Shown in pieces: positions 10,828-27,311 of a stretch of 41,789 bases of DNA. The translations under genes and the position numbers were made by a program. The first letter of the stretch is position 1. Every line of letters starts with the position of its first letter. The stretch comes from Deltaproteobacteria bacterium. GTDB taxonomy: Bacteria > Myxococcota_A > Polyangia > Haliangiales > Haliangiaceae. The stretch spans positions 1 to 41,789 of the forward strand of contig JAFAOG010000148.1 in assembly GCA_019237945.1 (NCBI GenBank), written 5' to 3'. The notes beneath the pieces were generated by a model. The model searched no databases, was not told the DNA's origin, and saw nothing but the letters and a program-made list of their open reading frames with translations.

Positions 10828-11907
10828 TCAGCCCGCCGGTGCGTTAGGAGGAGCGTCCAAGTCCGCGTGGCGCCTGGGAACGATGCGGTCGAGGATCGCC
10901 AGGTCGGGGGGCGCCGGGGTGTTCGGCGCGGGGCTCGCCGCGTTGCCGCCGGCACCCTCCTCGAACGCGCGCTCGACCTGCTCGACGACCCGCGCGAACA
11001 CCTGCTCGAGCGCGCGCGTCGCGAGCGCGTGCGGCACCGCCATCCCCATCGCGGCCGCGATCGCGAACGCCTGATCGCGCAGCGGCAGGTCGGCACCGCG
11101 CGGCGCGAACGGCACGACCAGGCTCGCGAGCTGGCGAAACCACGCGAGCCGCTGATCGTGCGGCACGTCGCGCAGGTTCGCGGGCTCGACGATGAAGAAG
11201 TCGCTCGGCTCGACCGGCGCCGGCAGCGGCGCGCCCGCATCGGCGAACAGGAAGCGCCGCGCGAGGAAGTAGATCCACAGCAGCAGCTTGAAGTCGGCGT
11301 AGTGCGCGCCGAACGCGAGCAGCTCGTCGCTCGCCGGCTCGGCCGCGCTCGGCCCGACCAGCACCTCGAAGAACCGCAGCAGCATCTTGTCGCCGCCGCT
11401 GCACACCTCGTGCTCGCCGACGAGCGTGCCGCTCGCCTCCGCGAGCTCGAGCATCGACTCCGGCGTCAGCGCGGGCACGCTCCAGCCCTCGCTCATCGAC
11501 TTGACGAGCAGCCGCTGCGCCCAGATCCCCTGGCCGAGCGTCGCCTTCGACAGCGCGGCGACATGCGCGGGCACGCGGCCGTCGCGGAACAGGTGCCACC
11601 ACGGCAGCGCGCTGCCGAGCTGGCTCACGCGCCACACGTCCATCAACCCGGGCTGCGTCACGCCGAGCCCGCGGTCGTGCGCCGCGCGCACCGACGCGAG
11701 CAGTGCACACGCCTCGTCCCAGTGCGCGCCCATCTGCCGCAGCGCGCTCGCGTTCATCGGCTTGCCGTGGCGCGTCCCGCTGTACGGGCACGTCTTGTAC
11801 TCGATGTCGCCGTCGCGGAGCAGCGCGGGCGGCGTGCGGCCCTCGCGCAGCGGCCGATCCTCGACGTCGCGCAGCCCCGCCGACTCGATCATCTGCAACA
11901 CCCTCAC
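10828..11907 (-). CDS. Unknown protein co-transcribed with queE
   Basis: 359 aa from GTG 11907, which overlaps the queE stop (GTGA); a longer frame exists upstream but would run into queE. I do not recognise a family. It is soluble, with no signal peptide or clear membrane span. A possible Cys-containing segment lies early (YKTCPYSGTRHGKP, ~38-51), the middle is aromatic and helical (FKLLLWIYFLARRFLFA, ~220-236), and the tail is Pro/Ala-rich. The tight coupling to queE and the downstream ECF gene suggests one transcript. Confidence 0.75.
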   Translation of the reverse strand: MRVLQMIESAGLRDVEDRPLREGRTPPALLRDGDIEYKTCPYSGTRHGKPMNASALRQMGAHWDEACALLASVRAAHDRGLGVTQPGLMDVWRVSQLGSALPWWHLFRDGRVPAHVAALSKATLGQGIWAQRLLVKSMSEGWSVPALTPESMLELAEASGTLVGEHEVCSGGDKMLLRFFEVLVGPSAAEPASDELLAFGAHYADFKLLLWIYFLARRFLFADAGAPLPAPVEPSDFFIVEPANLRDVPHDQRLAWFRQLASLVVPFAPRGADLPLRDQAFAIAAAMGMAVPHALATRALEQVFARVVEQVERAFEEGAGGNAASPAPNTPAPPDLAILDRIVPRRHADLDAPPNAPAG

Positions 11908-12521
11908 GGGACGCCGATCACCTTGTGCATCTGAACGGACAACCGCCATCGCGGACGCTCCTGCACGAGCGCGATCGCCTTCGCGAGATGCTCCCGGTAG
12001 TGGTCATCCATCCACGCCTGCGCGAAGTAGTGCTCGCACGGATACTGCGCCTCGTAGCGCGCGAGCGTGCTCGCATCGGTGTGATCGTCGATCACGACCT
12101 TGAGCTCGTTCGGTGCGACGTCGCTCGCGAGCAGCAGGCCGCTCGGATGGTATTGCGGCTTCGGCGAGACGGTCAGCCAGTCGACCTTGCCCTGCGGCGC
12201 GCGCGTCCCGTTCGACTCCATGTGCACGCGAAACCCGGCCGCATGCAGCGCATCGGCGAGCGGCGCGTCGTACTGCAGCGTCGGCTCGCCGCCGGTCACG
12301 ACGACCATGCGCGCGCGATGCGCATCGAGCTCCACCAGCCGCGCCACGATCTCGGGCGCCGTATAGCGAACGGCCCCTTCGGGCGAGAAGTCGGTATCAC
12401 AGCCGGGGCATTCGAGGTTGCATGCGGCGAACCGCAGGAACACGCACGGCCGCCCCGCGTGCGCACCCTCGCCTTGCAGCGTCGGGCCGAACATCTCCTT
12501 CACGAGGTAGCGGCGGTCCAT
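11904..12521 (-). CDS. queE: 7-carboxy-7-deazaguanine synthase (radical SAM)
   Basis: 205 aa from ATG 12521. The substrate loop GPTLQGEGAHAGRPCVFLR (12-30) and the radical-SAM cluster CNLECPGCDTDF (C34, C38, C41) are characteristic of QueE. MVVVTGGEPTLQ (SAM-binding GGEP), a later SPKP motif and the C-terminal VQMHKVIGVP complete the family pattern. The enzyme converts 6-carboxy-tetrahydropterin to 7-carboxy-7-deazaguanine in queuosine/preQ0 synthesis. QueC, QueD and QueF are not in the window. It is divergent, with a gap of only 24 bp, from a lipoprotein gene. Confidence 0.95.
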   Translation of the reverse strand: MDRRYLVKEMFGPTLQGEGAHAGRPCVFLRFAACNLECPGCDTDFSPEGAVRYTAPEIVARLVELDAHRARMVVVTGGEPTLQYDAPLADALHAAGFRVHMESNGTRAPQGKVDWLTVSPKPQYHPSGLLLASDVAPNELKVVIDDHTDASTLARYEAQYPCEHYFAQAWMDDHYREHLAKAIALVQERPRWRLSVQMHKVIGVP

Positions 12522-13490: not shown

Positions 13491-13967
13491 GTGCAGTGCC
13501 CGTACTGCGGCGGCGATTCGAGCGTGACCGAGACCCGGGTCACCGCGGATGGCCTGCGGCGTCGGCGCGTGTGCACGGTCTGCAAGCGTCGCTTCACGAC
13601 GTACGAGAAGCTCGGCGCGCCCGGCCTCAAGGTGCAGAAGCGCGACGAATCGGTCGAGCCGTTCGACGCCGAGAAGCTGTTTCGCTCGCTCCAGCGCGTC
13701 GCCGCGCACCGCAGCATCGGCGATGACGACCTGCGCCGCGTCGCGCGCGATATCGAGGCGACGCTCGTCGACAGCGGCCGCAAGAGCGTCGCGTGGAGCG
13801 ACATCGTGGAGCTCGCACTCGATCGCCTGCGCAACATCGACCCGATCGCCGCGGATCGGCTCGCCGCGAATTACACCGACGAATCGGGCGCGGTTCGCTT
13901 CGATCACAGCGCACCGGCGACCGAGACGAAGCAGCTCGGCCTGCCGCTCACCGACGACGAGAGCTAG
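13491..13967 (+). CDS. nrdR: Transcriptional repressor NrdR
   Basis: 158 aa, GTG start (QCPYCGG). The zinc ribbon has C3, C6, C28 and C31, with the conserved RRRRVC and RRFTTYE blocks. An ATP-cone follows at ~49-139 (VQKRDESVEPFDAEKLFRSL). NrdR binds NrdR boxes upstream of ribonucleotide reductase genes and senses ATP/dATP through the cone. The length is typical (150-160 aa). No ribonucleotide reductase gene is in the window; nrdR often lies apart. The stop shares CTAG with the convergent histidine kinase gene. Confidence 0.97.
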   Translation: MQCPYCGGDSSVTETRVTADGLRRRRVCTVCKRRFTTYEKLGAPGLKVQKRDESVEPFDAEKLFRSLQRVAAHRSIGDDDLRRVARDIEATLVDSGRKSVAWSDIVELALDRLRNIDPIAADRLAANYTDESGAVRFDHSAPATETKQLGLPLTDDES

Positions 13968-14728
13968 GCAAGCGGCAGATACATCGAGACCGTCGTGCCG
14001 CGGCTCGGCGCGCTGTCGATCGCGATCCGTCCGCCGGCGCGTTCGACCGCCTCGCGCACGGAGTACAGCCCGATGCCAGTGCCGGTCGGTTTCGTCGTGA
14101 AGAAGATGTCGAAGCACTGCGCGAGCGTCGCTTCGTCCATGCCCGGCCCCGTGTCGACGACGACGAGCGCGACGAAGTCGGGCGCACCGACGAGCGGCAC
14201 GCGCGTGGCCCGGATCGTGAGCGTCCCACCGGCCGTCATCGCTTCGAACGCGTTGATCGCGAGGTTGCCGACGATCAGCTCGACGTCGCGCTTCGCCATC
14301 GGCGTACGCATGTTCGGATCGATCTCGCCGGTGACGCGCACGCCGGCGGGCGCGATGCGACCGAGCTGATCGACCTGGCGCGCCAGCACCCGTGACAGGT
14401 CCGTGGGACCGGCGGCCTCGACCACACGTCGCGCCGCGGCGGTGAGCTTGCGCGCGAGATGAATACCGCGATCGCAGGCCCCTCGCAGATCGGTCAGGGT
14501 CTCCTCCACCTCCGGGTCATCCCCGTACCGCTCCCCTAGCAAGGCGGCGAGGGTCGAGACGATCGTGATCACGTTGCGGACCTCGTGCGCGAGCTCCGCC
14601 GCCACGACGCCGCTCTCCTTCATGTCTTCCATGAACGAGTAGGTAGTGTCCGGCCGCTCGGCGAGCACACCCGTGCACGCCGCAAGTGTTGTCCGTGCGC
14701 GCCGAGTTATCGGTGCGGTGGCTTCCAC
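13964..14728 (-). CDS. Soluble sensor histidine kinase
   Basis: 254 aa. H-box ELAHEVRNVI (~46-55, phospho-His48), N-box NLAINAFEAM, G1 DTGPGM, F-box FFTTK and G2 GTGIGLYSVREAVERAGG are all intact, so it should be active. There is no membrane span and almost no sensory domain (about 40 residues precede the H-box). It must therefore sense through a partner or act as an intermediate. The start overlaps the end of the AraC gene by 22 nt; a downstream ATG (MEDMKESG) is possible. It ends the minus-strand run that includes the double-glycine peptide genes. No receiver protein is adjacent. Confidence 0.9.
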   Translation of the reverse strand: MEATAPITRRARTTLAACTGVLAERPDTTYSFMEDMKESGVVAAELAHEVRNVITIVSTLAALLGERYGDDPEVEETLTDLRGACDRGIHLARKLTAAARRVVEAAGPTDLSRVLARQVDQLGRIAPAGVRVTGEIDPNMRTPMAKRDVELIVGNLAINAFEAMTAGGTLTIRATRVPLVGAPDFVALVVVDTGPGMDEATLAQCFDIFFTTKPTGTGIGLYSVREAVERAGGRIAIDSAPSRGTTVSMYLPLA

Positions 14729-15726: not shown

Positions 15727-15939
15727 TCAGCGGGCGCGGCCTTGCATCATCTGCCCGAGGAACTGCATCGACTGCTGGCTCTCCTGCTGCTTCTCCTGGA
15801 CGAGGCCCTGCCCGACGCCCTGGATCGCCTGCGAGAGGCCCGCGATCGCCTGGAGCAACGCCGGGTCGGTCTGCGGGTTGTGCGTCGTGCGGCCGCCGGT
15901 CACGGCAGCGAGCTCGTCCGCGCTGATCGTCGGAAGCAT
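15727..15939 (-). CDS. Small double-glycine-leader peptide, 70 aa
   Basis: 70 aa. Residues 1-16 (LPTISADELAAVTGG after Met) match the double-glycine leader pattern x-x-EL-x-x-V-x-GG, with predicted cleavage after G16. The predicted mature part is 54 residues: a helical stretch (ALLQAIAGLSQAIQGVGQGL, 27-46) and a Gln/Met-rich end (QESQQSMQFLGQMMQGRAR). It lacks the long Met/Gly runs of the two neighbours but shares the L-S-x-(A/S)-I helix. It begins 3 nt after the 94-aa gene's stop, so the two are co-translated. It could be a third secreted peptide; an immunity or modifier role is possible but not indicated. Confidence 0.75.
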   Translation of the reverse strand: MLPTISADELAAVTGGRTTHNPQTDPALLQAIAGLSQAIQGVGQGLVQEKQQESQQSMQFLGQMMQGRAR

Positions 15940-15942
15940 CGG

Positions 15943-16227
15943 TTAGCCCCGGACGTTCACTTTGACGATGTTCGGCGCGGGAGCCGGGGGCGGCGCCGCG
16001 GCCTGACCGCCACCACCACCGCCGCCCATCATCATCATCATCATCGGCAGCATCATGTTGCTCGACGAGTTGTTCTGGTTGCTCGCGACCTGTTTGATCG
16101 AGTCGGAGAGCTGCATCATCATCATCTGGACTTGGGTGTCGGTATCCGACGAGGTCGCGGCGACGCGCGCTGCACCGCCGGAGACGCGGTCGAGCTCGAC
16201 GGAGTTGATCTGTTCGAAGGTCTTCAT
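15943..16227 (-). CDS. Met/Gly-run peptide with double-glycine leader, 94 aa
   Basis: 94 aa. The leader MKTFEQINSVELDRVSGG (1-18) closely resembles the colicin V leader MRTLTLNELDSVSGG, with cleavage predicted after G18. The predicted mature 76 residues comprise AARVAATSSDTDTQVQ, Met35-38, a helix (LSDSIKQVASN, 40-50), an Asn/Ser linker, M58-M59, Met62-67, Gly68-74, a Pro/Ala stretch, and a beta-like tail (NIVKVNVRG). It is a paralogue of the 106-aa gene: both share GGAARVA, a MMM block, (L/I)S(D/E)SIK and the Met-run/Gly-run junction. A Shine-Dalgarno AAAGGA lies ~8 nt before ATG. It is not a bacteriocin family I recognise. Secretion by the adjacent C39 transporter is inferred. Confidence 0.85.
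   Translation of the reverse strand: MKTFEQINSVELDRVSGGAARVAATSSDTDTQVQMMMMQLSDSIKQVASNQNNSSSNMMLPMMMMMMGGGGGGGQAAAPPPAPAPNIVKVNVRG
16027..16044. repeat. (CAT)6 trinucleotide tract, Met-run codons of the 94-aa peptide
   Basis: Six consecutive CAT triplets on the plus strand, read as ATG codons on the minus strand. They are followed by seven Gly codons that mix GGC and GGT. A perfect triplet tract can slip without shifting the frame, so the number of Met residues may vary between strains. Confidence 0.85.
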
Positions 16228-16340
16228 GGTGGATTCCTTTGCTGGTGAGCGGGGCTAGTTCACGGTGCGTGCCACGAGGCCGGGTGAGTGATTTCAGGCG
16301 AGTCGAAGCGCGAGGGCGTCGCCGCCGGTAGACGAGGTGC
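16228..16340. other. Intergenic gap between the two Met/Gly peptide genes
   Basis: 113 bp between the stop of the 106-aa gene and the start of the 94-aa gene. It contains the Shine-Dalgarno of the 94-aa gene. A plus-strand GTGCCA at 16269-16274 reads TGGCAC on the minus strand, like a sigma-54 -24 box, but has no good -12 partner. No terminator hairpin was recognised. Confidence 0.45.
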
Positions 16341-16661
16341 CTACCAGCACTTCTTGCCGCAGCCGCCGCCGCAGCCGCCGCCGTCGACCTGGACGTACGT
16401 CGGGGGCGGGCCTCCGGCAACGGCCGCGCCGCCGCCTCCTCCGCCCATCATCATCATCATCATCATCATCTGCATCATCTGGTCGCCGCCGTTGTTGTTG
16501 CTGGCGAGCGATTTGATGGACTCGCTGATCTGCGTCAGCATCATCATGAGCTGATCGCTCGAGTCGCCGCTCGATGAGGACGCAACGCGCGCGGCACCGC
16601 CGGCGACGTTGGTGAGGGCGGTCGGATCGATCGAGACAAATTCGTCCTGCTTGGTCGACAT
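16341..16661 (-). CDS. Met/Gly-run peptide with double-glycine leader and Gly-Cys tail, 106 aa
   Basis: 106 aa. The leader (1-22, with SIDPTALTNVAGG before the cut) ends in Gly21-Gly22; the predicted mature chain starts AARVASS. Residues 38-41 are LMMM, then the helix LTQISESIKSLASNNN (42-57), M62-M63-Q64, eight Met at 65-72, six Gly at 73-78, a Gly/Pro linker (PPPTYVQV), and the tail DGGGCGGGCGKKCW with Cys97, Cys101 and Cys105. It is paralogous to the 94-aa gene over ~23-78. A Shine-Dalgarno AAGGA lies ~8 nt upstream of ATG. It starts 39 nt after the FlgO-like/beta-barrel gene. Met, Gly and spaced Cys could bind soft metals (Cu, Ag) or be substrates for crosslinking; this is a guess. Confidence 0.85.
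   Translation of the reverse strand: MSTKQDEFVSIDPTALTNVAGGAARVASSSSGDSSDQLMMMLTQISESIKSLASNNNGGDQMMQMMMMMMMMGGGGGGAAVAGGPPPTYVQVDGGGCGGGCGKKCW
16446..16469. repeat. (CAT)8 trinucleotide tract, Met-run codons of the 106-aa peptide
   Basis: Eight perfect CAT triplets on the plus strand, encoding eight Met on the minus strand. The adjoining Gly codons are mixed (GGA/GGC), so the Gly part is not a simple DNA repeat. Shorter CAT tracts mark the other Met blocks of both peptide genes (for example four triplets at 16114-16125). Confidence 0.85.
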
Positions 16662-16700: not shown

Positions 16701-18215
16701 TTAGAAATTGATGCCGAGGTTGGCGCTGCCGGTGATGGCAGTGTCGGAGGCGCCCCACATCCCGTAGGTCGGGACGAGCGCGCCGCTTCCCTCGAAGTCG
16801 AGCGTGATGCGGCGATACTCGAGGTCGCCGCGGACATACAGGTTCGACGGCAGCGGGATCGTGAAGTCACCGGAGAGCGTCATGCCCCACGCGGTGCCCG
16901 CGCCGAACCAGTCTTCCGACGAGATGTCGCCGGTCTCGAGGAGGTAGAGGTACTTCGCGCCGAAGCCGATGTTCGCGCGGTCGGAGACGGCGAGCGACAG
17001 ATGCGCGCCGGCCGAGACGTACGAGTACGCGGTGTCGGGGATCGCGATCGAGGACGGCAGGTCGACGATCGTGTGGGTGACGTTGCCGTAGCTGACACCG
17101 CCGTCGAACGTGACCATGTCGATCGGGTAGCGGTAGTGTGCGCCGAGCTCCCACTGCGAGTGGTTGTACGTGTAGTCGCCGTAGCCGGAGCTGTCCATCG
17201 CGGTGAACGTCGTGCCGAGCGAGTGCGCGATCGACGCCGAGAACCCGAGACCGGAGAGGCCGCCGTCCTGCTTCTTCAGCGGTGCCGGGAACACCTCGGC
17301 CTGGATCTGCATGCCGTGGATCGAGCTCGCCGGGAAGTCGACCGTGTTCTTCGCGTTCGGATCGTGGTCGAACGTGATGCCGCGCGAGCTGTAGTAGCCG
17401 CCGGCGGAGATCGCGAAGCGTGGCGTCGGCCGTGCGATGTGCGACGTCTTGCCCTCGGAGACGATCGCCGCCTCCTTCGAGTCCGGGCCGAACAGCGTGA
17501 CGAGATCCGACTCGTCCTTCTGGTCGTCGGTCGCGGTCGCGACGACCTTCTTGGGCTCCGGCTTCTTCGGCTCCGGCGCCTCTTCCTCGTCCTGGTCGTC
17601 GGCATCGTCCTGCTGGACGACGCGATGGTGCTTCTTGTGATGCTTCGGCTTCGGGGCCTCGTCGTCGTCCGCGTCGTCCTGCGCGGGAGCGGGCTCGTGA
17701 TGAGCGCCGAGCATCGGGCGCATCGTCCGCACGTCGGGCAGCGACGAGGTCGTCTGCGACGCGGTCGGGTCGTCGTCGATGAAGCCGAAGATGTCGTCGA
17801 GCTGCGCGGCGAGCTGGTGGCCCTGGTCGGTCGAGACACCCGAGCTGCCGAGCTTGATCGTGATCGTGTCGATCTCGTTGCCGGTCGCGGCATCGCGCAC
17901 GGCGACGGTCATCACGTGATGGCGGCCCTCGTCCTGGACCCAGCCTTCGATCACCGCGTCGACGCCGGCCTGCTTCGCGGCCTGACGCCACTGCTGCGGA
18001 CCGTGACCCGCCGCCTGGGCGCGCGCGGTTTCCCAGCGGCGCGTCGCGACGACGTCGTACTGATCGCCGAGCAGCGACATCACCGACGATCGACCGACAT
18101 CCGCGAGCACGCGGGGGCCGTCGAAGTCGAGCACGACGACGCGCCGGGGCTTGGCATCCGCCGTGGCCGAGGCCGCGAGCAGCGATGCAATGATGGCAAC
18201 CTGAGAGATGCGCAT
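16701..18215 (-). CDS. FlgO/CsgG-like N-terminal domain plus outer-membrane beta-barrel protein
   Basis: 504 aa from ATG 18215 (MRISQVAIIASLLAASATADA signal peptide). Residues ~24-150 (RVVVLDFDGPRVLADVGRS, AKQAGVDAVIEGWVQ, AVRDAATGNEI) look like the FlgO/TolB-N-type domain that recurs in secreted outer-membrane lipoproteins. A charged linker at ~190-240 alternates Asp/Glu blocks with Lys/His (KPKHHKKHHRVVQ). Residues ~290-504 are a typical barrel: alternating strands ending in GSANLGINF, with terminal Phe. The stop precedes the 106-aa peptide gene by 39 nt, and the start follows the L-domain lipoprotein stop by 14 nt. It is thus embedded in the putative export operon. It could be a surface receptor, an export accessory or the docking point for the peptides; no function is established. 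Confidence 0.8.
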   Translation of the reverse strand: MRISQVAIIASLLAASATADAKPRRVVVLDFDGPRVLADVGRSSVMSLLGDQYDVVATRRWETARAQAAGHGPQQWRQAAKQAGVDAVIEGWVQDEGRHHVMTVAVRDAATGNEIDTITIKLGSSGVSTDQGHQLAAQLDDIFGFIDDDPTASQTTSSLPDVRTMRPMLGAHHEPAPAQDDADDDEAPKPKHHKKHHRVVQQDDADDQDEEEAPEPKKPEPKKVVATATDDQKDESDLVTLFGPDSKEAAIVSEGKTSHIARPTPRFAISAGGYYSSRGITFDHDPNAKNTVDFPASSIHGMQIQAEVFPAPLKKQDGGLSGLGFSASIAHSLGTTFTAMDSSGYGDYTYNHSQWELGAHYRYPIDMVTFDGGVSYGNVTHTIVDLPSSIAIPDTAYSYVSAGAHLSLAVSDRANIGFGAKYLYLLETGDISSEDWFGAGTAWGMTLSGDFTIPLPSNLYVRGDLEYRRITLDFEGSGALVPTYGMWGASDTAITGSANLGINF

Positions 18216-18229
18216 GGCCGTCGTCCTTC

Positions 18230-19231
18230 CTAGTTCTGGTAGGGGCAACCGTTGTTCCAGCACCACGAGTGCTGCTGGCAGGAGCTCGTGCGAGTGCCGG
18301 TGATCTGCAGCGTTCCCGTGATCTGCATGCAGCACGTGAACGGCTGCGGCTGGCAGTAGTCGAGGTTCGTATTGCCGGTGATCAGCACCGAGCCGCCGAC
18401 GAGGCCGACGTGCGTCAGCTGGCCGAGCGACGTCAGCGCCGTGTTGTTGCTGATCGCGATCGAGCCGTCGACCGAGGTCATCGAGCTCGACATCCCGTCG
18501 AGACCGGAGAGCTTCGTGTTGTTGCTGACCGTCAGCGAGCCGTGGATGTACGAGAGCGACGTCAGCGGCTTGAGCGTCGTCAGCGAGATGTTGTGCGTCA
18601 GCGAGAAAGGCCCGACGCTCGACAGCTGCCCGAGGTCGACGCTGGTCAGCGCGTCGTTGTCCTGGATCGTGAGGCCGCCCTCGAGGCGCGTCGCATGCGA
18701 GAGGTCGATCGACGCGAGCTTCGGGTTGTTCTCGATCGTCGTCGCGCCGGTGACGCGCGTCGTCTCGGAAAGGCCGCCGAGGCTCGGAAGCACGTCGTTG
18801 TACTCGACCATCAGCGACGACAGGTCGCCGTGCGGCATGACCTTCGAGATGTCGACGAGCTTCGTGTTGTGGTGGATCGCGAGGTCGCCGGTGACGTGCA
18901 GCATGTCGGGCACCGCGATGCTCGACAGCTCCGTCGAGTCGATCTCGAGCGAGCCGACCGTGCGCAGGTCGCCGAGCTTGTCGAGGCTCGAGATCGCCGG
19001 GCCGCGCAGCGTCAGCTTGCCGCCGAGCTCCCAGCAGCCGGTCGGCAGGCCGGTGAAGCCCGACGAGCCCGTGATCGTCATGTCGCCGGGGACGGACACG
19101 AGGTCGTCACACGTGCGAGCCGACGAGCCGGAGCCGGCGTCGGGGCTGCCGTAGTAGCGACCGCCGCCTCCGCCGACCTGCGCGCAGGCAGCGAGGAGAG
19201 AGCAAAGCAGCAGCTGAGTGGTGGTGCGCAT
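18230..19231 (-). CDS. Surface lipoprotein with leucine/L-domain-like beta-helical repeats
   Basis: 333 aa from ATG 19231 (MRTTTQLLLCSLLAAC, lipobox Cys16; the longer frame upstream has no signal). After a Gly/Ser linker, residues ~55-300 consist of irregular repeats of ~24 residues with periodic Leu/Ile and Asn (SLTVSNNTKLSGLDGM, SIAISNNTALTSLGQL, SVLITGNTNLDYC). This resembles the receptor L-domain or LRR-like beta-helix in other Myxococcota lipoproteins. The Cys-rich C-terminus (QPFTCCMQITG, CQQHSWCWNNGC) suggests a disulfide cap. The gene lies between the TolC-like gene and the FlgO-like barrel gene, all on the minus strand. A role as surface anchor or receptor is inferred. Confidence 0.82.
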   Translation of the reverse strand: MRTTTQLLLCSLLAACAQVGGGGGRYYGSPDAGSGSSARTCDDLVSVPGDMTITGSSGFTGLPTGCWELGGKLTLRGPAISSLDKLGDLRTVGSLEIDSTELSSIAVPDMLHVTGDLAIHHNTKLVDISKVMPHGDLSSLMVEYNDVLPSLGGLSETTRVTGATTIENNPKLASIDLSHATRLEGGLTIQDNDALTSVDLGQLSSVGPFSLTHNISLTTLKPLTSLSYIHGSLTVSNNTKLSGLDGMSSSMTSVDGSIAISNNTALTSLGQLTHVGLVGGSVLITGNTNLDYCQPQPFTCCMQITGTLQITGTRTSSCQQHSWCWNNGCPYQN

Positions 19232-19343: not shown

Positions 19344-20990
19344 TCAGTGCTCCTCCGCGTGCGGGCGAACGTTGACGCGGTACTGCTCGAGGAGGATGCC
19401 GCTGAGGAACTGCAGCTGCGCGACGGCCTCGTGGTAGTCCGCGATGGCGCGGCCGCGCTGGATACGCGCGTCGATCAGCTGCGTCTGCTGCTGCATGACC
19501 TGGAAGTTGCTGGTCTTGCCGGCGACGAAGTTCGTCTTCTCGATGCGGACGTTGTCCTCGGCGACGTTGATCGCCGTGTCCGCGAGCGCGACGCGCGTGC
19601 GCGCCGCCGTGACCTGCTTCACGGCCGTGACGACCTGCACGTCGATCTGGCGCTCGAGGTCGGCGCGGTCGATGTCGAGCCGGTGCTTCTTCGCCGCCGC
19701 CGCATCGCGCGCGTGACGCGCCGCTCCCGACAGCTCGAACGACATCGACACGCCCGCCGTCACCTGGAAGCTGTCGCCGACGGCGCCGAGCGATTCGCCC
19801 GTCGAGTCGCCGTTGCCCATCAGCGCGCCCTGGAGCTGCAGATCGAGCGTCGGCTTGACCTGGTCCTGCGCGACGCCGAGGTCGACGTCCGCGATCTTCT
19901 TCTCGATCTGCACGCTTGCGAGCTGGTGGTTCGCCTGGTGGCTGCGCGCGAGGATCTCGTCGACGTCGAAGTCCTCGTTGCCGACCTCGAACGCCTCGCC
20001 GGGCTTGACGACGATGTCGCGCTTGCCGATCTCGAGACCGACCTTGCGGCGCAGCTCGAGGGACTTCTGCTCGAGCTCGATCTGCGCGCGCAGCAACGCT
20101 TCCTTGCGCGTCGCGATCTCGTACGTCGTCTGCCCGAGTGCGGTCGACGGCGCCGCTCCCGCGCGGATCTGCTCGTGCGTCAGCTGGTCCTGCTTCTGCG
20201 CGAGCTCGATCGCCTGGGTGCGGATGTCGACCTCGTACGCAGCGAACGCGAGCTCCCAGTACGCATCGACGATGTCGCGGATCATCTCTTCGGCCGCGAG
20301 CTGCGCCTTGACGGTCGCCTCGGTCGCCGCGAGATCCGCCTTCTTCTGCGTCGCGAGCGCGACATCGGGGCCAAAGCCGCGCGCGAGCGGCTGCTTGAAC
20401 GTCGCGGCGAGCTTCGTCTGGTTCTGCGACAGGAACTCGTACGGGTTGTTGTTGCTGTTCGTGCCCGTCGGCGAGCCCTGCGCGGCGCTGCCCTGCCCCG
20501 TGAACAGGCGGTCATAGACGTTGTATTCGGTGTTCGTGTGCGCGAGATCGGCCTCGACGCTGAGCGACCCGCCCGTCGGCAGGTTCTTCGCGAGCCCGAC
20601 GCCACCGCTCACCTGATCGGTCGCGACCACGCTGAACGGCGGGACCTCGACGTGATCGGCGACCGCGCTGCGGCTGTACTCCGCGTGCGACGTCATCACC
20701 CACGCCTGATCGCGGCGCGACGCGGCGGCCGTATCGATCGCGACACTCCGATCGACCTTCGCCCGCGCGAGATCCGGCGCGAGCCGCACCGCCACTTCGA
20801 TCAGATCATCGAGCTTGACCGGAAGCATCGCCTTCGCCTCCGGGCCATCGCTCGGCTCCTCGTTCGGATCCTCCTGCGTGTCGTCCGCACCCGGCGCCTG
20901 CGCGACCGTCTCGCGCTTGTGGTGGTGGCGCGGCTGGGCGCTGGCGGTGCCAGCCAGCAGCGTGATCGCGAGGAGCGCTCTCGTCTTCAT
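19344..20990 (-). CDS. TolC-family outer-membrane efflux/secretion channel
   Basis: 548 aa from ATG 20990, with a signal peptide (KTRALLAITLLAGTASAQ) and a His-rich mature start (PRHHHKRE), then an acidic linker. The tandem OEP architecture follows: conserved alternation of long coiled helices and strands, such as DLARAKVDRSVAIDTAAASR, AYWELAFAAYEVDIRTQAIELAQ and the second repeat NHQLASVQIEKKIADVDLG...AARHARDAAAAKKHRLDIDRADLERQI. It is somewhat longer than E. coli TolC. It is the natural outer-membrane conduit for the divergently encoded C39 ABC transporter and its adaptor(s). A clear Shine-Dalgarno AAGGAG lies 7 nt upstream. Confidence 0.93.
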   Translation of the reverse strand: MKTRALLAITLLAGTASAQPRHHHKRETVAQAPGADDTQEDPNEEPSDGPEAKAMLPVKLDDLIEVAVRLAPDLARAKVDRSVAIDTAAASRRDQAWVMTSHAEYSRSAVADHVEVPPFSVVATDQVSGGVGLAKNLPTGGSLSVEADLAHTNTEYNVYDRLFTGQGSAAQGSPTGTNSNNNPYEFLSQNQTKLAATFKQPLARGFGPDVALATQKKADLAATEATVKAQLAAEEMIRDIVDAYWELAFAAYEVDIRTQAIELAQKQDQLTHEQIRAGAAPSTALGQTTYEIATRKEALLRAQIELEQKSLELRRKVGLEIGKRDIVVKPGEAFEVGNEDFDVDEILARSHQANHQLASVQIEKKIADVDLGVAQDQVKPTLDLQLQGALMGNGDSTGESLGAVGDSFQVTAGVSMSFELSGAARHARDAAAAKKHRLDIDRADLERQIDVQVVTAVKQVTAARTRVALADTAINVAEDNVRIEKTNFVAGKTSNFQVMQQQTQLIDARIQRGRAIADYHEAVAQLQFLSGILLEQYRVNVRPHAEEH

Positions 20991-21004
20991 GGAGTGGCTC
21001 CTTG

Positions 21005-21020
21005 AGCAGCCACCGTGCCG
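21005..21020 (-). promoter_or_regulatory. CGGCACGGT-N3-TGCT element (sigma-54-like) before TolC-like gene
   Basis: Minus strand CGGCACGG-TGGCTGCT, GG-N10-GC spacing. It is the twin of the element before the L-domain lipoprotein, including the AAGG that follows directly. The presence of a sigma-54-type activator in the cluster makes a promoter role attractive. The predicted start point about 4 nt before ATG argues for caution. Confidence 0.35.
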
Positions 21021-21076
21021 ATCGCCAACCCATCGACTACTCGCGTAGACAGCGTTTCGTGACCCCGAGGACTCGC

Positions 21077-21092
21077 ATCCCGCGGGTTACAC
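21077..21092 (-). repeat. ATCCCGCGGGTTRCAC element, copy 2
   Basis: Second copy of the 16-bp element, 87 bp upstream of the TolC-like start and 89 bp upstream of the membrane fusion protein start. It sits between the divergent genes, so one bound protein could act on both. Confidence 0.5.
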
Positions 21093-21152
21093 AATGCGAC
21101 CCCCACCCCCGGGCGACACCCGAAATCCGGCCGCGTGTCGCAGGCTTAGCGC

Positions 21153-21168
21153 TGGCTTCGCCTTTGCT
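21153..21168 (+). promoter_or_regulatory. Candidate sigma-54 promoter of the membrane fusion protein operon
   Basis: TGGCTTCGCCTTTGCT: GG at 21154-21155, GC at 21166-21167 with ten bases between, and a good TTGCT -12 box. The -24 box is TGGCTT instead of TGGCAC. The implied start is ~21179, two bases before the ATG, which would give a leaderless mRNA unless ATG 21226 (residue 16) is the real start. The operon's last gene encodes a sigma-54 activator. Confidence 0.3.
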
Positions 21169-21180
21169 CTTTAGCGCGGC

Positions 21181-22758
21181 ATGGACGAAGCGCCGACGTA
21201 TCTTCCGGTCGACGAGCCGGCGACGATGCCGCGCAAGTGCCGGGTGCCGAAGTCGGACTCGGTCATCACGTCCGCGCCGCGCGCCGCCCGCGAGCCCGCA
21301 CCGCTGCCGCCCGCGCCGTCGATCGCCGCGCCGCAGTCGCCGGTCGTCCAGCTGCCCGGTGGCGGCGCCGCATTCGATCCCCACGGCGTGCCGCTGCCCG
21401 CCGAGCTCGCTCCCAACATCTATGGTTGGCTTCGTCGCCTCGCGCTGCAGGCCGACCTCGCCGGCGCCGATCGGCTGCTGCGTGATGCACTCGCGGATCT
21501 GACGTCCTCGCTGTCGGTCGTCCTCATCTATGCGGGGCCGGAAGGGCTCCACTCGCTGGGCACCGATGACGAGATTCCGCAGGGCGAAGCGCAGCAGCCG
21601 ATCCAGGCGGTGGCTCGCTCGCGCCGCGCACTGGTGACGACGCACGTGGCGCTCGTGCCGATCACGACGCAAAGCGAGACGATCTGCGTGATCCAGCTGA
21701 CGCGCAACCCGCGCCAGGCGCCGTTCGGAATGCTCGAGCACGTGCTGATGGCCGCGATCGCGCGCGAGAGCGCCGGCATCATGCATCACCTCGTCGTCGA
21801 GCACCTGCAGCGCCGCACCGAGGCCGAGCAGGACAAGAAGTCGCTGTATCGCCCCGAGGCGCTCGACTCGCATCGCCGCCGCGGTCACGAAGGCGTGGTC
21901 GCGGAGCTGTCGCCGGGCTGGGTGCGCCGCACCTACTACGTGCTCGGCACGATCATGGTGATCGCGGTCGTGTTCTCGGTCGTGATCAAGGTGCCGACGT
22001 ACTCGACGGGCACCGGCGTCGTCATCTATCAGGGCACGCCGGTGACGTCGCCGTCGCCGGGGCAGGTCGAGAAGATCTACGCCGAGGAAGGCCAGAAGGT
22101 GCTCGCCGGCGATCTGATCGTGAAGCTGTCGTCGGAGAAGGAAGACGCCGACCTGCGCGCCGCGAAGACCGCGTACGAGAAGGCGCAGGCCGCGTACTTC
22201 ATGGACAAGGCCGACGAGACCGCACGCAAGGAGATCGTCGAGACGCAGAACTCGTACACGCACGCGCAGGCGGCCGTCGATCAGAAGACGATCCGCGCGA
22301 AGACGGAAGGCACCGTGTCGGGCCTGCACCTGACGCGCGGCCAGGCCGTGCAGTTCGGCGATCCGATCTGCTCGATCGTCCCCGAAGGCACGGCGCCGGA
22401 GATCTGGGCGTTCATGCCGGGCAGCGATCGTCCGCGCGTGCACGCGGGCATGCCGCTGCAGGTCGAGATCTCGGGCTACCAGAAGGGCCGCGAGAAGGCG
22501 GAGATCTACGAGGTCGGCCGCGAGATCACGGGCGCCGCGAGCATCCGCGCGACGCTCGGCCCGCAGATCGCCGACTCGCTCAAGCTGCCGCAGGACGGCT
22601 CGTTCGTGATCGTCAAGGCGAAGCTGCCGACGCGCACGTTCGAGGTCGACCACAAGACGTACCGCTACTTCCACGGCCTCGGCGCGAAGACCGAGGTTCG
22701 CGTCGAGAGCAAGCGCTTCCTCGTGACGCTGCTGCCGTCCCTCGACAAGTACCTCTAG
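21181..22758 (+). CDS. Membrane fusion protein (HlyD-type) with N-terminal GAF-like cytoplasmic domain
   Basis: 525 aa from ATG 21181 (ATG at residue 16 is an alternative). Residues 1-~75 are Pro-rich. Residues ~78-215 form a soluble alpha/beta domain (LLRDALADLTSSLSVVLIYAG, VALVPITTQSETICVIQLTR, FGMLEHVLMAAIARESAGIMHHL) that looks GAF-like. A membrane span lies at ~252-270. The C-terminal half is HlyD/MFP: lipoyl-like VTSPSPGQVEKIYAEEGQKVLAGDLIVKL (~288-316), a short coiled-coil (~325-365), a second lipoyl half (TEGTVSGLHLTRGQAV), then a beta-barrel. Canonical MFPs have only a short cytoplasmic tail, so the ~250-residue sensor-like extension is unusual. The C39 transporter gene begins 11 nt downstream. 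Confidence 0.88.
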   Translation: MDEAPTYLPVDEPATMPRKCRVPKSDSVITSAPRAAREPAPLPPAPSIAAPQSPVVQLPGGGAAFDPHGVPLPAELAPNIYGWLRRLALQADLAGADRLLRDALADLTSSLSVVLIYAGPEGLHSLGTDDEIPQGEAQQPIQAVARSRRALVTTHVALVPITTQSETICVIQLTRNPRQAPFGMLEHVLMAAIARESAGIMHHLVVEHLQRRTEAEQDKKSLYRPEALDSHRRRGHEGVVAELSPGWVRRTYYVLGTIMVIAVVFSVVIKVPTYSTGTGVVIYQGTPVTSPSPGQVEKIYAEEGQKVLAGDLIVKLSSEKEDADLRAAKTAYEKAQAAYFMDKADETARKEIVETQNSYTHAQAAVDQKTIRAKTEGTVSGLHLTRGQAVQFGDPICSIVPEGTAPEIWAFMPGSDRPRVHAGMPLQVEISGYQKGREKAEIYEVGREITGAASIRATLGPQIADSLKLPQDGSFVIVKAKLPTRTFEVDHKTYRYFHGLGAKTEVRVESKRFLVTLLPSLDKYL

Positions 22759-22769
22759 GAGCCATTGCC

Positions 22770-25061
22770 ATGAGCACGATCATCGACAGCTTTCCCGCGC
22801 TCAAGAAGCTTGGCTTCGTCGCTGCGCGTCGCGCGGTGCCGTTCGTGCAGCAGCTCGAGTGGACCGACTGCGGTGCCGCTTCGCTCTGCATGGTGATGGC
22901 CTATCACGGCAAGGAAGTGAAGCTTGCCGAGGTCCGCGAGGCGATGGGCATCGGCCGCGACGGCGTCAGCGCGAAGGCGATCCTCGACACGGCGGAGCGC
23001 TACGGCCTCGCCGGCCGCGGCATCAAGGTCGACATCTCGCAGATCAAGCTGCTCAAGGCGGCGACGATCCTGCACTGGGAGTTCAACCACTTCGTCGTGT
23101 TCGAGCGCGTCGTCAAAGGCGGCGTGCGCATCGTCGACCCGGCGACCGGCCCGCGCGATGTGCCGCTCGCGGACTTCGCGAAGGCGTTCACCGGCGTCGC
23201 GATCGAATTGACGCCGACGCCGCGCATGACGGCGACGAAGTACGAGAAGGGCCGCCTCAAGCGCTACCTCGACGAGCTACTCAGCGAGAAGGGTCTGTTC
23301 TCGCGCGTGATCGTCGTGTCACTGTTCCTGCGGCTCGTCGCGCTCGCGCTGCCGCTGATGACCGGCATGATCATCGACCAGGTCGTCCCGCGCACCGACT
23401 ATCACCTGCTCTACGTCTGCCTCGCGACGATCGCGGGCATGGTCGGCTTCAACCTCATCAGCGAGGTCGTGCGCGCGCACCTGCTGCTGCACCTGCGCAT
23501 CGCGCTCGACACGCGGATGACGCTCGGGTTCCTCGATCACATGGTGTCGCTGCCGTTCCAGTTCTTCCAGCGGCGCTCGACGGGTGACCTGATGATGCGC
23601 GTCGACTCGAACGGCACGGTGCGCGAGATCGTGACGAGCAAGTCGTTGTCGGCGGTGATCGACGGCCTGTTCGTGCTGCTCTACGCGGGTGTCATCTTCT
23701 ACGTCAACCCGACGCTGGGGATCGTGACCATCCTGTGCTCGTCGGCCGAGGCGCTCGTGTTTCTGTGCGCGCGCCCGACGTTCGTGCGCCTGCTCGCGGC
23801 ATCGCTCGACAAGCAGGCGAAGGCGCACAGCTACATGGTCCAGCTGCTCGGCGGCATGGAGACGCTGAAGTGCGCCGGCGCGGAGCGGCTCGGCCTCGAG
23901 AAGTGGAGCAACCTCTACACCGACGAGCTCAACATCAAGATGCGCCAGGCACGCGCGAACGCGTACGTCGACGGCATCCGCGGCGCGGTCGCGAGCATCG
24001 GCCCGATGCTGATCCTGACGATCGGCGCGACGAGCGTGATGAAGCACGACATGTCGATGGGAATGATGCTCGCGATGAACTCGCTCGCGACGAGCCTGTT
24101 CGGGCCGCTGTCGGCGCTGGTGTCGTCGGCCTTGGAGCTGCAGCTCGTCAAGGGCCACATGGACCGCATCGACGACGTGCTGCAGACCAAGGTCGAGCAG
24201 GATCGCGACGCCGCGAAGCAGCCGCCGCGCCTCAAGGGGCACGTCACGGTGAAGAACCTGTCGTTCAAGTACGGCGAGCAAGCACCGCTCGTCGTGCAGG
24301 ACGTCAACCTCGACATCCCGCCCGGCGCGGCCGTCGCCTTGGTGGGGCCGTCGGGCTCGGGCAAGTCGACGCTCTTGAACCTGCTCGCCGGTCTCTACCA
24401 GCCGGTCGGCGGCGACATCGCGTACGACGGCAAGCCGCTGCGCGACATGGACCTGCGCGCGGTGCGCCAGCAGATCGGCGTCGTGCCGCAGCACCCGTTC
24501 ATCTTCGGCGGCACGGTGCGCGAGAACGTCGCGCTGTCGGCGCCGGGCGCGCAGCTCGATCGCATCCAGGCCGCCGCGAAGGTCGCGTGCCTGCACGACG
24601 ACATCGCTGCGATGCCGATGGCCTACGACACCGTGATCTCCGACGGCGGCGGCTCGCTCTCCGGCGGCCAGCGCCAGCGCGTCGCGATCGCCCGCGCGAT
24701 CCTGCGCAACCCGACGCTGATGCTGCTCGACGAGGCGACCTCCGCGCTCGACAACTCGACCGAAGCGCGCGTGATCGCCGGCCTGGAGAAGCTGCGCTGC
24801 ACGCGCATCACGGTCGCCCACCGTCTCTCCACCGTCCGCAACGCCGACCTGATCGTCGTCATGGACAAGGGCCGCATCGTCGAGCAAGGCAACCACGACC
24901 AGCTCGTCGCCCGCGGCGGTCTCTACGCCCAACTTCTCGCCGCCTCGCAGGCCGCCCCCACTCGCCAGGAGCTCCCCTATGAAGCAGCATTCGCTATGTC
25001 CACTCCTGCTGCTCCTCACAGCAGCTTGCGCAACGCACGAAACAGCCCCGAGCGAGGCTGA
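22770..25061 (+). CDS. Peptidase-C39 ABC transporter (double-glycine leader peptidase and exporter)
   Basis: 763 aa. The N-terminal C39 protease (~20-150) has oxyanion Gln28, catalytic Cys34 (QQLEWTDCGAASL), His107 (WEFNHFVVF) and Asp123 (IVDPATGP), all intact; canonical enzymes cut after Gly-Gly leaders. Six-helix membrane domain at ~175-455 with LPFQFFQRRSTGDLMMRV. The ATPase (~490-725) has Walker A GPSGSGKST, Q-loop, signature LSGGQRQR, Walker B LMLLDEATSALD and H-loop AHRLS. A Shine-Dalgarno AGGAG lies 9 nt before ATG. The C-terminus carries ~25 extra residues that overlap the next gene by 83 nt. It pairs with the membrane fusion protein and TolC-like protein as a type I secretion system. 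The three GG-leader peptides are its probable substrates. Confidence 0.95.
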   Translation: MSTIIDSFPALKKLGFVAARRAVPFVQQLEWTDCGAASLCMVMAYHGKEVKLAEVREAMGIGRDGVSAKAILDTAERYGLAGRGIKVDISQIKLLKAATILHWEFNHFVVFERVVKGGVRIVDPATGPRDVPLADFAKAFTGVAIELTPTPRMTATKYEKGRLKRYLDELLSEKGLFSRVIVVSLFLRLVALALPLMTGMIIDQVVPRTDYHLLYVCLATIAGMVGFNLISEVVRAHLLLHLRIALDTRMTLGFLDHMVSLPFQFFQRRSTGDLMMRVDSNGTVREIVTSKSLSAVIDGLFVLLYAGVIFYVNPTLGIVTILCSSAEALVFLCARPTFVRLLAASLDKQAKAHSYMVQLLGGMETLKCAGAERLGLEKWSNLYTDELNIKMRQARANAYVDGIRGAVASIGPMLILTIGATSVMKHDMSMGMMLAMNSLATSLFGPLSALVSSALELQLVKGHMDRIDDVLQTKVEQDRDAAKQPPRLKGHVTVKNLSFKYGEQAPLVVQDVNLDIPPGAAVALVGPSGSGKSTLLNLLAGLYQPVGGDIAYDGKPLRDMDLRAVRQQIGVVPQHPFIFGGTVRENVALSAPGAQLDRIQAAAKVACLHDDIAAMPMAYDTVISDGGGSLSGGQRQRVAIARAILRNPTLMLLDEATSALDNSTEARVIAGLEKLRCTRITVAHRLSTVRNADLIVVMDKGRIVEQGNHDQLVARGGLYAQLLAASQAAPTRQELPYEAAFAMSTPAAPHSSLRNARNSPERG

Positions 25062-25881
25062 TCCCACGGAAGCGATCGTGCCCGCCGCCAAGCCCATCAC
25101 CGCCGCGCCCGCCGAGTTCGTCGGCATCGTGACCTCGCGCAACAGCAAGGTCATCACCGCCGACTTCGAAGGCCGCGTCGATCGCCTCGACCTGTTCAAC
25201 GGCAAGCACGTCAAGGCCGGCCAGGTCGTCGCGCACCTCGACGACAGCGAGCTGCAGAACCGGTTGCGGGCGGCGCGCGCGAAGAAAGCCTCGGCTCAGG
25301 CGCAAGCGGCGAAGGCCGGCGCGATCTACGCGAACGCCGCGCGCAAGGCCAAGGTCGAGCGCTACCTCTCGCGCAGCGGCGCCTCCTCGCCCGAAGCGCT
25401 GCGCAGCGCGCAGTCCGACCAGGCCGCCGCGGGCGCCGAGGGCGGCGTCGCCGAGAGCGACATCAAGGCCGCGAACGCCGACATCGACGAGGTCCAGCGC
25501 CTGCTCGCGAACGCCGACGTCAAGGCGCCGATCGACGGCGTCGTCGCGGTCGTCAAGACCAAGGAAGGCGAGCTCGCGCACAAAGGAACCGCGATCGCGC
25601 GCGTCTTCGATCCCGAATCCCTCGTCATCCGCTTCGGCGTCCCGCACGCGAACCTCGCGACGGTCACGCTGAACACGCCGGTCGTCCTCACGACCGAAGA
25701 CGGAACCCAGATCCCCGCCACCATCCAGCGCCAGGACGACGATCACGATCCGACGATCGACCTGACGACGTTCGAAGCCGCAATCGACCCAACCATCCGC
25801 ATCGACGGGATCCGCGTCGGTGAGTACGGACATGTCCGGATCGCAGCCGCACCGACGGCAGCACAAGGAGCAGCGCGATGA
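24979..25881 (+). CDS. Second periplasmic adaptor (HlyD/RND-type) lipoprotein
   Basis: 300 aa from ATG 24979, with a Shine-Dalgarno AGGAG 7 nt upstream inside the transporter gene. Lipobox LLLLLTAAC (Cys17). Residues ~40-70 and ~178-200 are the two halves of a lipoyl domain (SKVITADFEGRVDRLDLFNGKHVKAGQVVAHLDD; KAPIDGVVAVVKTKEGELAHKG), joined by an Ala-rich helical hairpin (~75-165). A beta-barrel follows. It is a second MFP, attached to the membrane by lipid instead of a helix, so the system encodes two adaptors. It may dock a separate set of channels or build a mixed ring; this is undetermined. The stop overlaps the next start (ATGA). Confidence 0.88.
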   Translation: MKQHSLCPLLLLLTAACATHETAPSEADPTEAIVPAAKPITAAPAEFVGIVTSRNSKVITADFEGRVDRLDLFNGKHVKAGQVVAHLDDSELQNRLRAARAKKASAQAQAAKAGAIYANAARKAKVERYLSRSGASSPEALRSAQSDQAAAGAEGGVAESDIKAANADIDEVQRLLANADVKAPIDGVVAVVKTKEGELAHKGTAIARVFDPESLVIRFGVPHANLATVTLNTPVVLTTEDGTQIPATIQRQDDDHDPTIDLTTFEAAIDPTIRIDGIRVGEYGHVRIAAAPTAAQGAAR

Positions 25882-27311
25882 GCGTGGTACGATCTCTCGA
25901 AGTGGAAGGCTCTGACCTCGAGACCCCGACCTGGGTCACCTCGTATCAAGGCCTGCCGCGCACGGTCAACGTGCGCCGCTGTCGCCTGACCGTCGTTGCC
26001 GGCGCCGATACCGGCAAGACGATCGAGCTCGGCCTGCCCCAGATCCAGATCGGCCGCGCCGGCGCCGACCTCAACCTGACCGACACCAAGGTCTCGGGCC
26101 TGCACTGCGAGCTCAAGCTGATGCCGGAAGGCTACCGCCTCCGCGACCTCGGCTCGACGAACGGTACCTACGTCAAGGGCGTCCGCATCGTCGACGCGTT
26201 CATCCAGCCCGGCTCGACGATCCAGATCGGCAAGTCCGCGATCATCTTCGAGCCGCTCGACGAAGCGATCGCGATGCCGCTGTGGAACGAGGCGCGCCTG
26301 CAGCAGCTGGTCGGCGGCTCGGCCGGCATGCGCCACCTGTTCGACCTCGTGAATCGCTTCGCGCAGTCCGACGCGACGGTGCTGATCCAGGCCGAGACCG
26401 GCTGCGGCAAGGAGCTCGTCGCCGACGCGATTCACCAGTGCTCGCCGCGCCGCGACCAGCCGTTCATCGTGCTCGACTGCTCCGCGATCCCGGAGCAGCT
26501 GTTCGAAGCCCAGCTGTTCGGCTACGAGACGGGCGCGTTCACGGGCGCGATCAAATCCACCCCGGGCGTGTTCGAGATGGCGCACGGCGGAACGCTGTTC
26601 CTCGACGAGATCGGCGAGCTGCCTTTGGATGTGCAGGCGAAGCTGCTGCGCGCGGTCGAGACGCGCCGCGTGCGCCGCCTCGGCGGCACGAAGATGTTCG
26701 CGTCCGATGTCCGCATCGTCGCGGCGACGAACCGCGACCTCGCGGCCGAGGTCAACCGCGGCACGTTCCGCTCCGACCTCTACTATCGCCTGGCCGTCGC
26801 GAAGCTGAGCATCCCCGCGCTGCGCGAGCGTCGCGAGGACATCCCGCTCCTGGTCGAGCACTTCCTCCGCCAGCTGTCCGTCTCGTCGGGCAACCCCGAC
26901 CCGCGCCTGCCCGACGACTTCCTCGCGCGCGCCCAGCGCCACCAGTGGCCGGGCAACGTGCGCGAGCTCCGCAATGCGGTCGAGCGAGCCGTGCTCCTGC
27001 CGAACCATCCGCAAGCCGCGTTCGAGGCGCCGCCGAAGAAGGAGCAAGGCTTCGCGACGATCGACATCGACGTGCCGTTCAAGCAGGCCAAGCAGAAGCT
27101 GGTCGACGAGTTCGACCGCCGCTACCTCGAAGCCCTGCTCGAAGCGCACGACGGCAACATCTCGGCCGCCGCGCGCGCCGCTGGCATCGAGCGCATGAGC
27201 ATCTACAAGATGATCCGCCGCCTCGGCCTGGACAAGGACGAGGAGAATACGAACCGCCCGCCGACGGCGGACCCCGAAGGCGACGAAGAAGCGACGGGCC
27301 ACGACCGCTGA
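25878..27311 (+). CDS. FHA-domain sigma-54 activator (AAA+ / Fis HTH)
   Basis: 477 aa. FHA domain at ~35-125 (IQIGRAGADLNLTDTKVSGLHCEL, LGSTNGTYVKG), AAA+ at ~140-370 with Walker A-like AETGCGKE (172-179), GAFTGA loop at 219-224, Walker B FLDEIG (241-246), arginine-finger region (DLYYRL), and a C-terminal Fis-type HTH (~425-450: GNISAAARAAGIERMSIYKMIRRLG). FHA domains bind phosphothreonine, so this activator is probably switched on by a Hanks kinase; two are encoded in the window. The start overlaps the adaptor stop by four bases, so it is co-expressed with the exporter and is the likely activator of sigma-54 promoters in the cluster. The Walker A first Gly is Ala. Confidence 0.95.
   Translation: MSVVRSLEVEGSDLETPTWVTSYQGLPRTVNVRRCRLTVVAGADTGKTIELGLPQIQIGRAGADLNLTDTKVSGLHCELKLMPEGYRLRDLGSTNGTYVKGVRIVDAFIQPGSTIQIGKSAIIFEPLDEAIAMPLWNEARLQQLVGGSAGMRHLFDLVNRFAQSDATVLIQAETGCGKELVADAIHQCSPRRDQPFIVLDCSAIPEQLFEAQLFGYETGAFTGAIKSTPGVFEMAHGGTLFLDEIGELPLDVQAKLLRAVETRRVRRLGGTKMFASDVRIVAATNRDLAAEVNRGTFRSDLYYRLAVAKLSIPALRERREDIPLLVEHFLRQLSVSSGNPDPRLPDDFLARAQRHQWPGNVRELRNAVERAVLLPNHPQAAFEAPPKKEQGFATIDIDVPFKQAKQKLVDEFDRRYLEALLEAHDGNISAAARAAGIERMSIYKMIRRLGLDKDEENTNRPPTADPEGDEEATGHDR

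Follow-up and report, generated by a model that had tools for sequence, protein, structure and literature searches.

The peptide genes of the window

The window analysed here, 41,789 nucleotides long, is the whole of contig C433 in an 8.1-Mb Deltaproteobacteria assembly of 632 contigs, from a soil-dwelling relative of the myxobacteria. Its minus strand encodes three small peptides with double-glycine (GG) leaders, P1, P2 and P3, beside a set of export genes. The open reading frames (ORFs) of the peptides are as follows.

16341–16661, minus strand: P1, GG-leader peptide of 106 aa, leader end LTNVAGG, M8-G6, tail GGGCGGGCGKKCW
15943–16227, minus strand: P2, GG-leader peptide of 94 aa, leader end LDRVSGG, M6-G7
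15727–15939, minus strand: P3, GG-leader peptide of 70 aa, leader end LAAVTGG

An earlier note on this DNA had described three minus-strand ORFs of 106, 94 and 70 aa with GG leaders, and the coordinates and leader ends are confirmed. After the leader (...TNVAGG), P1 consists of AARVASSSSGDSSDQLMMMLTQISESIKSLASNNNGGDQMMQ, eight Met, six Gly and AAVAGGPPPTYVQVDGGGCGGGCGKKCW. P2 has the same layout, with six Met directly before seven Gly. GGAARVA, a shorter Met block and an SIK segment are common to both, and the translations bear out this shared plan as the note had given it, including M8-G6 and M6-G7. P3 contains no Met run (QFLGQMMQGRAR); its subtype has a Met/Gln-rich C-terminus in seven of eight aligned rows. 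The mature lengths predicted after GG are 84, 76 and 54 residues for P1, P2 and P3.

P1–P3 are the only ORFs in the window returned by a strict leader pattern, [ILVM]x4[LM]xx[VI]xGG with a start codon at most 25 codons upstream and 12–200 residues after it. The ratios of nonsynonymous to synonymous substitution (dN/dS) against the orthologues in genome G002 are 0.26, 0.46 and 0.61 in the order listed. The exact DNA pattern for six Met followed by GGG is seen in one of 377 sampled genomes of the phylum, at P1 and P2; other members of the genus with such genes are mostly outside the sample or have a broken Gly run. These three facts indicate that P1–P3 are more than chance.

The earlier note knew of no family with this architecture, and none was found in the libraries tried. 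No Pfam or NCBIfam model reaches its cut-off on P1–P3 (the best Pfam match is GET2 on P2, 19.8 versus 25.5 bits), and PHROGs and PADLOC give no match at E ≤ 0.01. The NHLP and Nif11 leader models do not match P1–P3 at E ≤ 0.5, and the bacteriocin leader model TIGR01847 is not listed for P1 or P2 at the same threshold. A search for P1 in plasmids and an Rfam scan of the window were likewise without a match. In the open-licence part of PubMed Central (PMC), no paper joins methionine-rich, bacteriocin and double-glycine, or Kofleriaceae and double-glycine, and nothing on a GG peptide family with Met runs is among the matches listed.

A family with a Met-rich core

A hidden Markov model (HMM) built from 20 seeds and run on fetched loci collects 61 distinct members from 11 genomes (E ≤ 0.001, the weakest 0.0003). 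They belong to two genera, probably of Kofleriaceae. With a first alignment, made from P1 and P2 together with two paralogues on contig C121, relatives are found in 12 of 30 family genomes (E ≤ 0.01). With a wider alignment, A2, made of 48 of the 61 members, peptides are found in 11 of 35 genomes of the order (E ≤ 0.001), nine in the own genus and two in the sister genus, at one to eight matches per peptide-bearing genome. G016, weak with the first alignment (0.0023), dropped out with A2. Across the phylum, A2 matched four of 377 genomes, each belonging to one of the two genera; no more than 13 candidates were scored in any genome, so a missing match there is weak evidence of absence. A contig scan of genomes with A1, whose pattern is a Met stretch, gave 584 pattern matches, none of them confirmed.

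The leader is the most constant part. GG is present in all 61 members; position −7 is Leu in 60 and Met in one, position −4 is Val in 58, Ile in two and Ala in one, position −12 is Ile in 49, Leu in seven and Val in five, and position −15 is Phe, Leu, Met or Ile in 60. The family shows GG with hydrophobic residues at −4, −7 and −12, the leader pattern of substrates of C39 peptidase-containing ATP-binding cassette (ABC) transporters (PCATs). The positions conserved in the family are those read by the C39 peptidase, according to the available text of PMC6363468.

Among the members are three types: Met-to-Gly, Met-run without Gly, and Leu/Met, exemplified in the sister genus by SQLMPLLAMSMLNQP. 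Peptides of the P3 type are a recurrent part of the same operons. The earlier note had counted a loss of the GG leader or of the Met runs in homologues against its reading. The leader is kept throughout. Many members of the same genus still have the runs; the sister genus and many of the dispersed paralogues have Leu/Met mixtures instead. In 20 of the 61 members the longest Met run is at least five, in 32 it is at most two, and the maximum is nine. The pure Met run is thus the extreme of a Met-rich core and is not universal in the family.

In the 10-residue stretch richest in Met and Leu, the composition is Met 0.549, Leu 0.151, Gln 0.072, Ala 0.056, Ile 0.013 and Val 0.011, while the mature peptides outside this core have Met 0.019, Val 0.055 and Ile 0.040. 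Because this stretch was selected by its Met and Leu content, with Met weighted slightly more, its scarcity of Ile and Val is in part built in; what is informative is that Met exceeds Leu.

The runs are pure trinucleotide repeats, of five to nine Met among the members listed, and it might be supposed that they are mere (ATG)n slippage in tolerant or non-functional sequence. This is extremely improbable. Among 22 distinct (ATG)6 runs in 16 genomes of the genus, 17 are in the Met frame of GG-leader genes of the family, one of these being a further member on G009:C91 outside the 61. The core holds few residues whose codons are a single step away from ATG, Leu excepted (Ile 1.3%, Val 1.1%, Thr 0.8%, Arg 2.0%). 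The dN/dS values are below 1, ranging from 0.14 to 0.61 in nine chosen gene pairs, and the peptide genes are under purifying selection. The other five (ATG)6 runs are outside the family: on C523, C394 and C1105 another, longer frame contains Asp runs, and the run on C126 is unassignable. The fifth, on G012:C1245 (L087 ~2561), is a possible true Met run; a long stretch of Thr comes after it, before a receiver-like domain.

Met at 55% against Leu at 15% and Ile and Val at about 1% goes beyond hydrophobicity alone, which would suit secreted scavengers of Cu(I)/Ag(I) or oxidants acting via Met thioethers. Such a role is improbable. No copper gene was recognised by eye among the gene clusters near at least three peptide loci, and the mixed Leu/Met core of the sister genus does not fit it. 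Besides, the Mets motifs of copper proteins are spaced, unlike these unbroken runs.

The export cassette and its promoter-like motif

The cassette has the order TolC, leucine-rich-repeat (LRR) lipoprotein, barrel-like protein, P1, P2 and P3, with a divergent arm of adaptor, C39-ABC transporter, lipoprotein adaptor and FHA/sigma-54 activator. In addition to the peptide genes, the window contains the following.

16701–18215, minus strand: barrel-like cassette protein, with a signal-peptide-like N-terminus, a charged linker and an outer-membrane-barrel-like C-terminal half (judged by eye)
18230–19231, minus strand: LRR (Recep_L_domain) lipoprotein, lipobox LAAC
19344–20990, minus strand: TolC-like outer membrane channel (OEP)
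20991–21180: intergenic region between the divergent arms, where imperfect sigma-54-like sites face TolC (CGGCACGGTGGCTGCT) and the first adaptor (TGGCTTCGCCTTTGCT)
21181–22758, plus strand: HlyD_3 periplasmic adaptor with a long N-terminal extension
22770–25061, plus strand: C39 peptidase-ABC transporter, Peptidase_C39 match at 2.6e-31
24979–25881, plus strand: second HlyD-type adaptor, a lipoprotein, with a lipobox in 8/8 copies examined
25878–27311, plus strand: FHA-domain sigma-54 activator
10831–11949, minus strand: protein X, unannotated, helical by prediction

The C39 transporter, placed 6 kb away by the earlier note, begins at 22770, at a distance of 6.1 kb from the P1 start. It has Cys (TDCGAA), His (HWEFNHF) and Asp (VDPA) at what are presumably the catalytic positions. 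Its best NCBIfam match is the NHLM/NHLP bacteriocin export transporter TIGR03796 (E = 2.8e-192); at 640.7 bits versus a cut-off of 853.3, it is not a member by that model. The lipobox pattern of the LRR lipoprotein is present in eight of nine copies, the ninth reading SMTAC. The barrel-like protein matches no Pfam family at its cut-off. No GAF domain is found in the first adaptor at E ≤ 0.01, unlike its homologue in C121.

The complete cassette with peptides is present on one contig in the window, G001, G014, G024 and G025. In other genomes it is seen in parts. The G007 contig breaks off within the second adaptor; the activator of this genome is found on a different contig. G011 has a barrel gene truncated at the edge of a contig, with the three peptides at the beginning of a different one. 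Contig edges also truncate TolC and C39 in G002, where the first adaptor is not seen. G009 has the cassette over two contigs, with no peptides beside it. G003 has the barrel gene and peptides only, and G005 has a barrel fragment beside the activator. All 11 peptide genomes have a barrel match, and 10 of them have the activator at 72% identity or more; the exception is G003 (60%), whose assembly is 73% complete. Based on leader conservation, exporter synteny and the presence of peptides and cassette in the same genomes, P1–P3 are very probably cleaved after GG and exported, and the earlier note's view of them as C39 substrates is supported.

The motif TGGCAC-N6-TGCT, which resembles a sigma-54 promoter, is present within 100 bp upstream of 27 of the 61 peptide genes, dispersed and operon paralogues alike, and of none in the reversed or downstream control. 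It precedes only seven of 602 other called genes: five cassette genes, the ORF L059:2995-3189 and one unrelated gene. In five of seven cassette loci (the window, L046, L047, L051 and L053; not L050 and L215), sites facing TolC match at nine or all of the 10 positions, and none of the seven has a site facing the first adaptor above eight matched positions. Upstream of P2, a TGGCAC box is seen at about −47, and the −12 half is degenerate (TGAA for TGCT). Control of the peptide and cassette genes by sigma-54 appears probable from these sites. L059:2995-3189 itself is a GG-leader ORF outside the Met family, with a Gln run and the sigma-54-like site upstream.

Protein X is within 400 bp of dispersed Met peptides in five relatives, and matches to it are found in all 11 peptide genomes and in three of 24 others. 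It might belong to the peptide and export system. A relative is seen among genes like those for nonribosomal peptide synthetases in G013 (L229:5134-5637).

G008, which has no Met peptides, carries a more distant version of the machine (C39 58%, activator 64%), in which LRR and barrel matches are missing. Its TolC is followed by two GG-leader ORFs (L214:13512-15677), one with a Cys/Gly-rich stretch after the leader. Contig C121 (L007:13516-18682, L008:31-2580) has a second C39 transporter, a GAF-HlyD adaptor, NAT and a lantibiotic dehydratase (LanB) near a Met-run GG peptide. LanB is about 6 kb from the paralogue C121:13516-13782. Modification by LanB, as in ribosomally synthesised and post-translationally modified peptides, was considered as a general explanation and rejected. 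At 1e-12, the 20-kb locus of a related G011 peptide (L059) contains no match to the LanB, NAT and C39 of C121. As a test for a class I lanthipeptide, the window was searched by tblastn with the LanB of C121 at the same threshold, and no match was found.

Possible roles outside the cell

The leader, the family, the conserved synteny, purifying selection and the promoter-like motif can all be read from sequence comparison, and the steps beyond them are proposed as follows. The C39 domain of the nearby transporter would cut after GG, and the TolC/adaptor channel would export the mature peptides. P1 and P2 would both combine a helix with a second, hydrophobic one rich in Met and with a flexible Gly/Pro tail. 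The FHA/sigma-54 activator would probably switch on the cassette and the dispersed peptide genes together. Outside the cell, the peptides may associate via the Met-rich helix into a surface layer or matrix, which the co-encoded LRR lipoprotein and barrel-like protein could organise, in the manner of EbfG1-4 in Synechococcus. This explanation as a whole, with P1–P3 as precursors of secreted peptides exported by the cassette and assembling into a surface layer or matrix, is tentative and has nearly an even chance of holding.

The surface or matrix role in itself is a reasoned guess that could well be wrong, favoured here over toxins. It is based on the co-encoded LRR lipoprotein and barrel-like protein, on paralogues at shared positions under purifying selection with no immunity gene found, and on GG peptides rich in Gly/Tyr or Gly/Trp beside a related exporter or in a relative. 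The nearest studied parallel, by description and not by sequence, is EbfG1-4/PteB of Synechococcus elongatus PCC 7942. In the available text of PMC4997328, EbfG1-4 are four small GG-motif proteins encoded by one transcript, with precursors of about 9–10 kDa, and PteB is a C39 peptidase transporter that requires its Cys to secrete efficiently. EbfG1-3 assemble into amyloid structures, and EbfG4 is located both at the cell surface and in the matrix (PMC9981879, as far as its available text goes). The mature EbfG proteins are said to have no homology to proteins of other cyanobacteria. Small GG-motif proteins and a C39 peptidase transporter are common to both systems; as far as these texts describe EbfG1-4, the Met run, the LRR lipoprotein, the barrel-like protein, the FHA/sigma-54 activator and the dispersed paralogues are seen only on the side of P1–P3.

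Alternatively, P1–P3 might be antimicrobial peptides like class II microcins or bacteriocins, acting on the membranes of competitors or prey. A GG leader, a C39 exporter and TolC are the class II microcin arrangement, here with an HlyD adaptor as in colicin V export, and the leader of P2 is presumably similar to the colicin V leader. Predatory myxobacteria are relatives of this lineage. A single operon encodes two or three distinct hydrophobic peptides, which also suits this role. GG motifs are compared with those of microcins in the available text of PMC4997328. On the other hand, no immunity gene was found, and the second adaptor, a lipoprotein, the dispersed paralogues and the Met-to-Gly core differ from the microcin and colicin V systems. 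Among small ORFs with a membrane-like stretch at eight loci, all 10 with a match in another locus are antisense over peptide genes, the thresholds of this search being such that atypical ones could be missed. The clusters of neighbouring ORFs of at least 60 aa include no conserved small membrane ORF fit for immunity. The paralogues are under purifying selection and occupy common positions next to genes of housekeeping type (SelO-like and deformylase-like, as judged by eye), which also speaks against the antimicrobial role. It is considered unlikely.

A role as secreted cell-to-cell signals is highly improbable. GG-leader signals occur in streptococci (PMC7595303, in its available text), the many paralogues could carry different signals, and the LRR lipoprotein could be a receptor. 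However, the mature forms in the family have 39–98 residues of low complexity, and the histidine kinase at 13964–14728 has only two matches in the loci searched, at 28–30% identity.

Several observations weigh against the explanation favoured here for P1–P3. The AlphaFold2 model of P1, with helices at 17–27, 34–55 and 57–72 (the last holding the Met run) and an unstructured tail, is poor (predicted local distance difference test score 62.4, predicted template modelling score 0.25). The GG leaders and hydrophobic core also fit an antimicrobial peptide. P3 scores 12.8 bits with TIGR01847, below the membership cut-off of 15.7. The leader statistics are partly circular, as the HMM was seeded with leader-bearing sequences. 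Within 100 bp, 34 of the 61 peptide genes have no perfect sigma-54-like site, some of them being downstream genes of operons, and there is no perfect site at P1–P3 in the window. Because the 61 genes are related to one another, the Fisher value of 7e-25 cannot be read as a true probability. The own genome has 39 motif sites versus 88 in the reversed control; only two of 30 such sites fetched precede family peptides, indicating that the motif is not specific to the family. The barrel query matched 26 of 30 family genomes (E ≤ 1e-10), and barrel paralogues in G004 (4.9e-31) and G017 (5.3e-25) outscore the cassette copy of G024 (4.8e-24), so position is used along with score to recognise the cassette copies. 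Four genomes of the sister genus (G022, G026, G027 and G028) have the activator at 69–71% without peptides and with no other cassette match on the fetched stretches; the activator alone therefore does not predict peptides.

It might further be imagined that this is a hitherto undescribed system of surface assembly in Kofleriaceae. Dispersed GG-leader peptide genes would form a sigma-54/FHA regulon, served by a dedicated C39 type I machine to which the LRR lipoprotein and the barrel-like protein belong, and their products would assemble outside the cell via Met runs, in effect as a methionine-based structural protein; this is doubtful. Long pure Met runs are rare, and here they appear concentrated in a putatively secreted family that prefers Met to other hydrophobic residues. 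With exporter, activator, candidate promoter and substrates all defined, the role of a Met run outside the cell is directly testable, and exported peptides that are dispersed in a genome could be located by means of the promoter motif.

Two GG-leader peptides of other composition were also seen. L138:7836-8192, in a metagenome-assembled genome of Myxococcales, is very rich in Gly, Tyr and Cys, ends in GCGCW and adjoins a related C39 transporter. L058:360-551, in G009, is a Gly/Trp/Tyr-rich GG-leader ORF outside the Met family.
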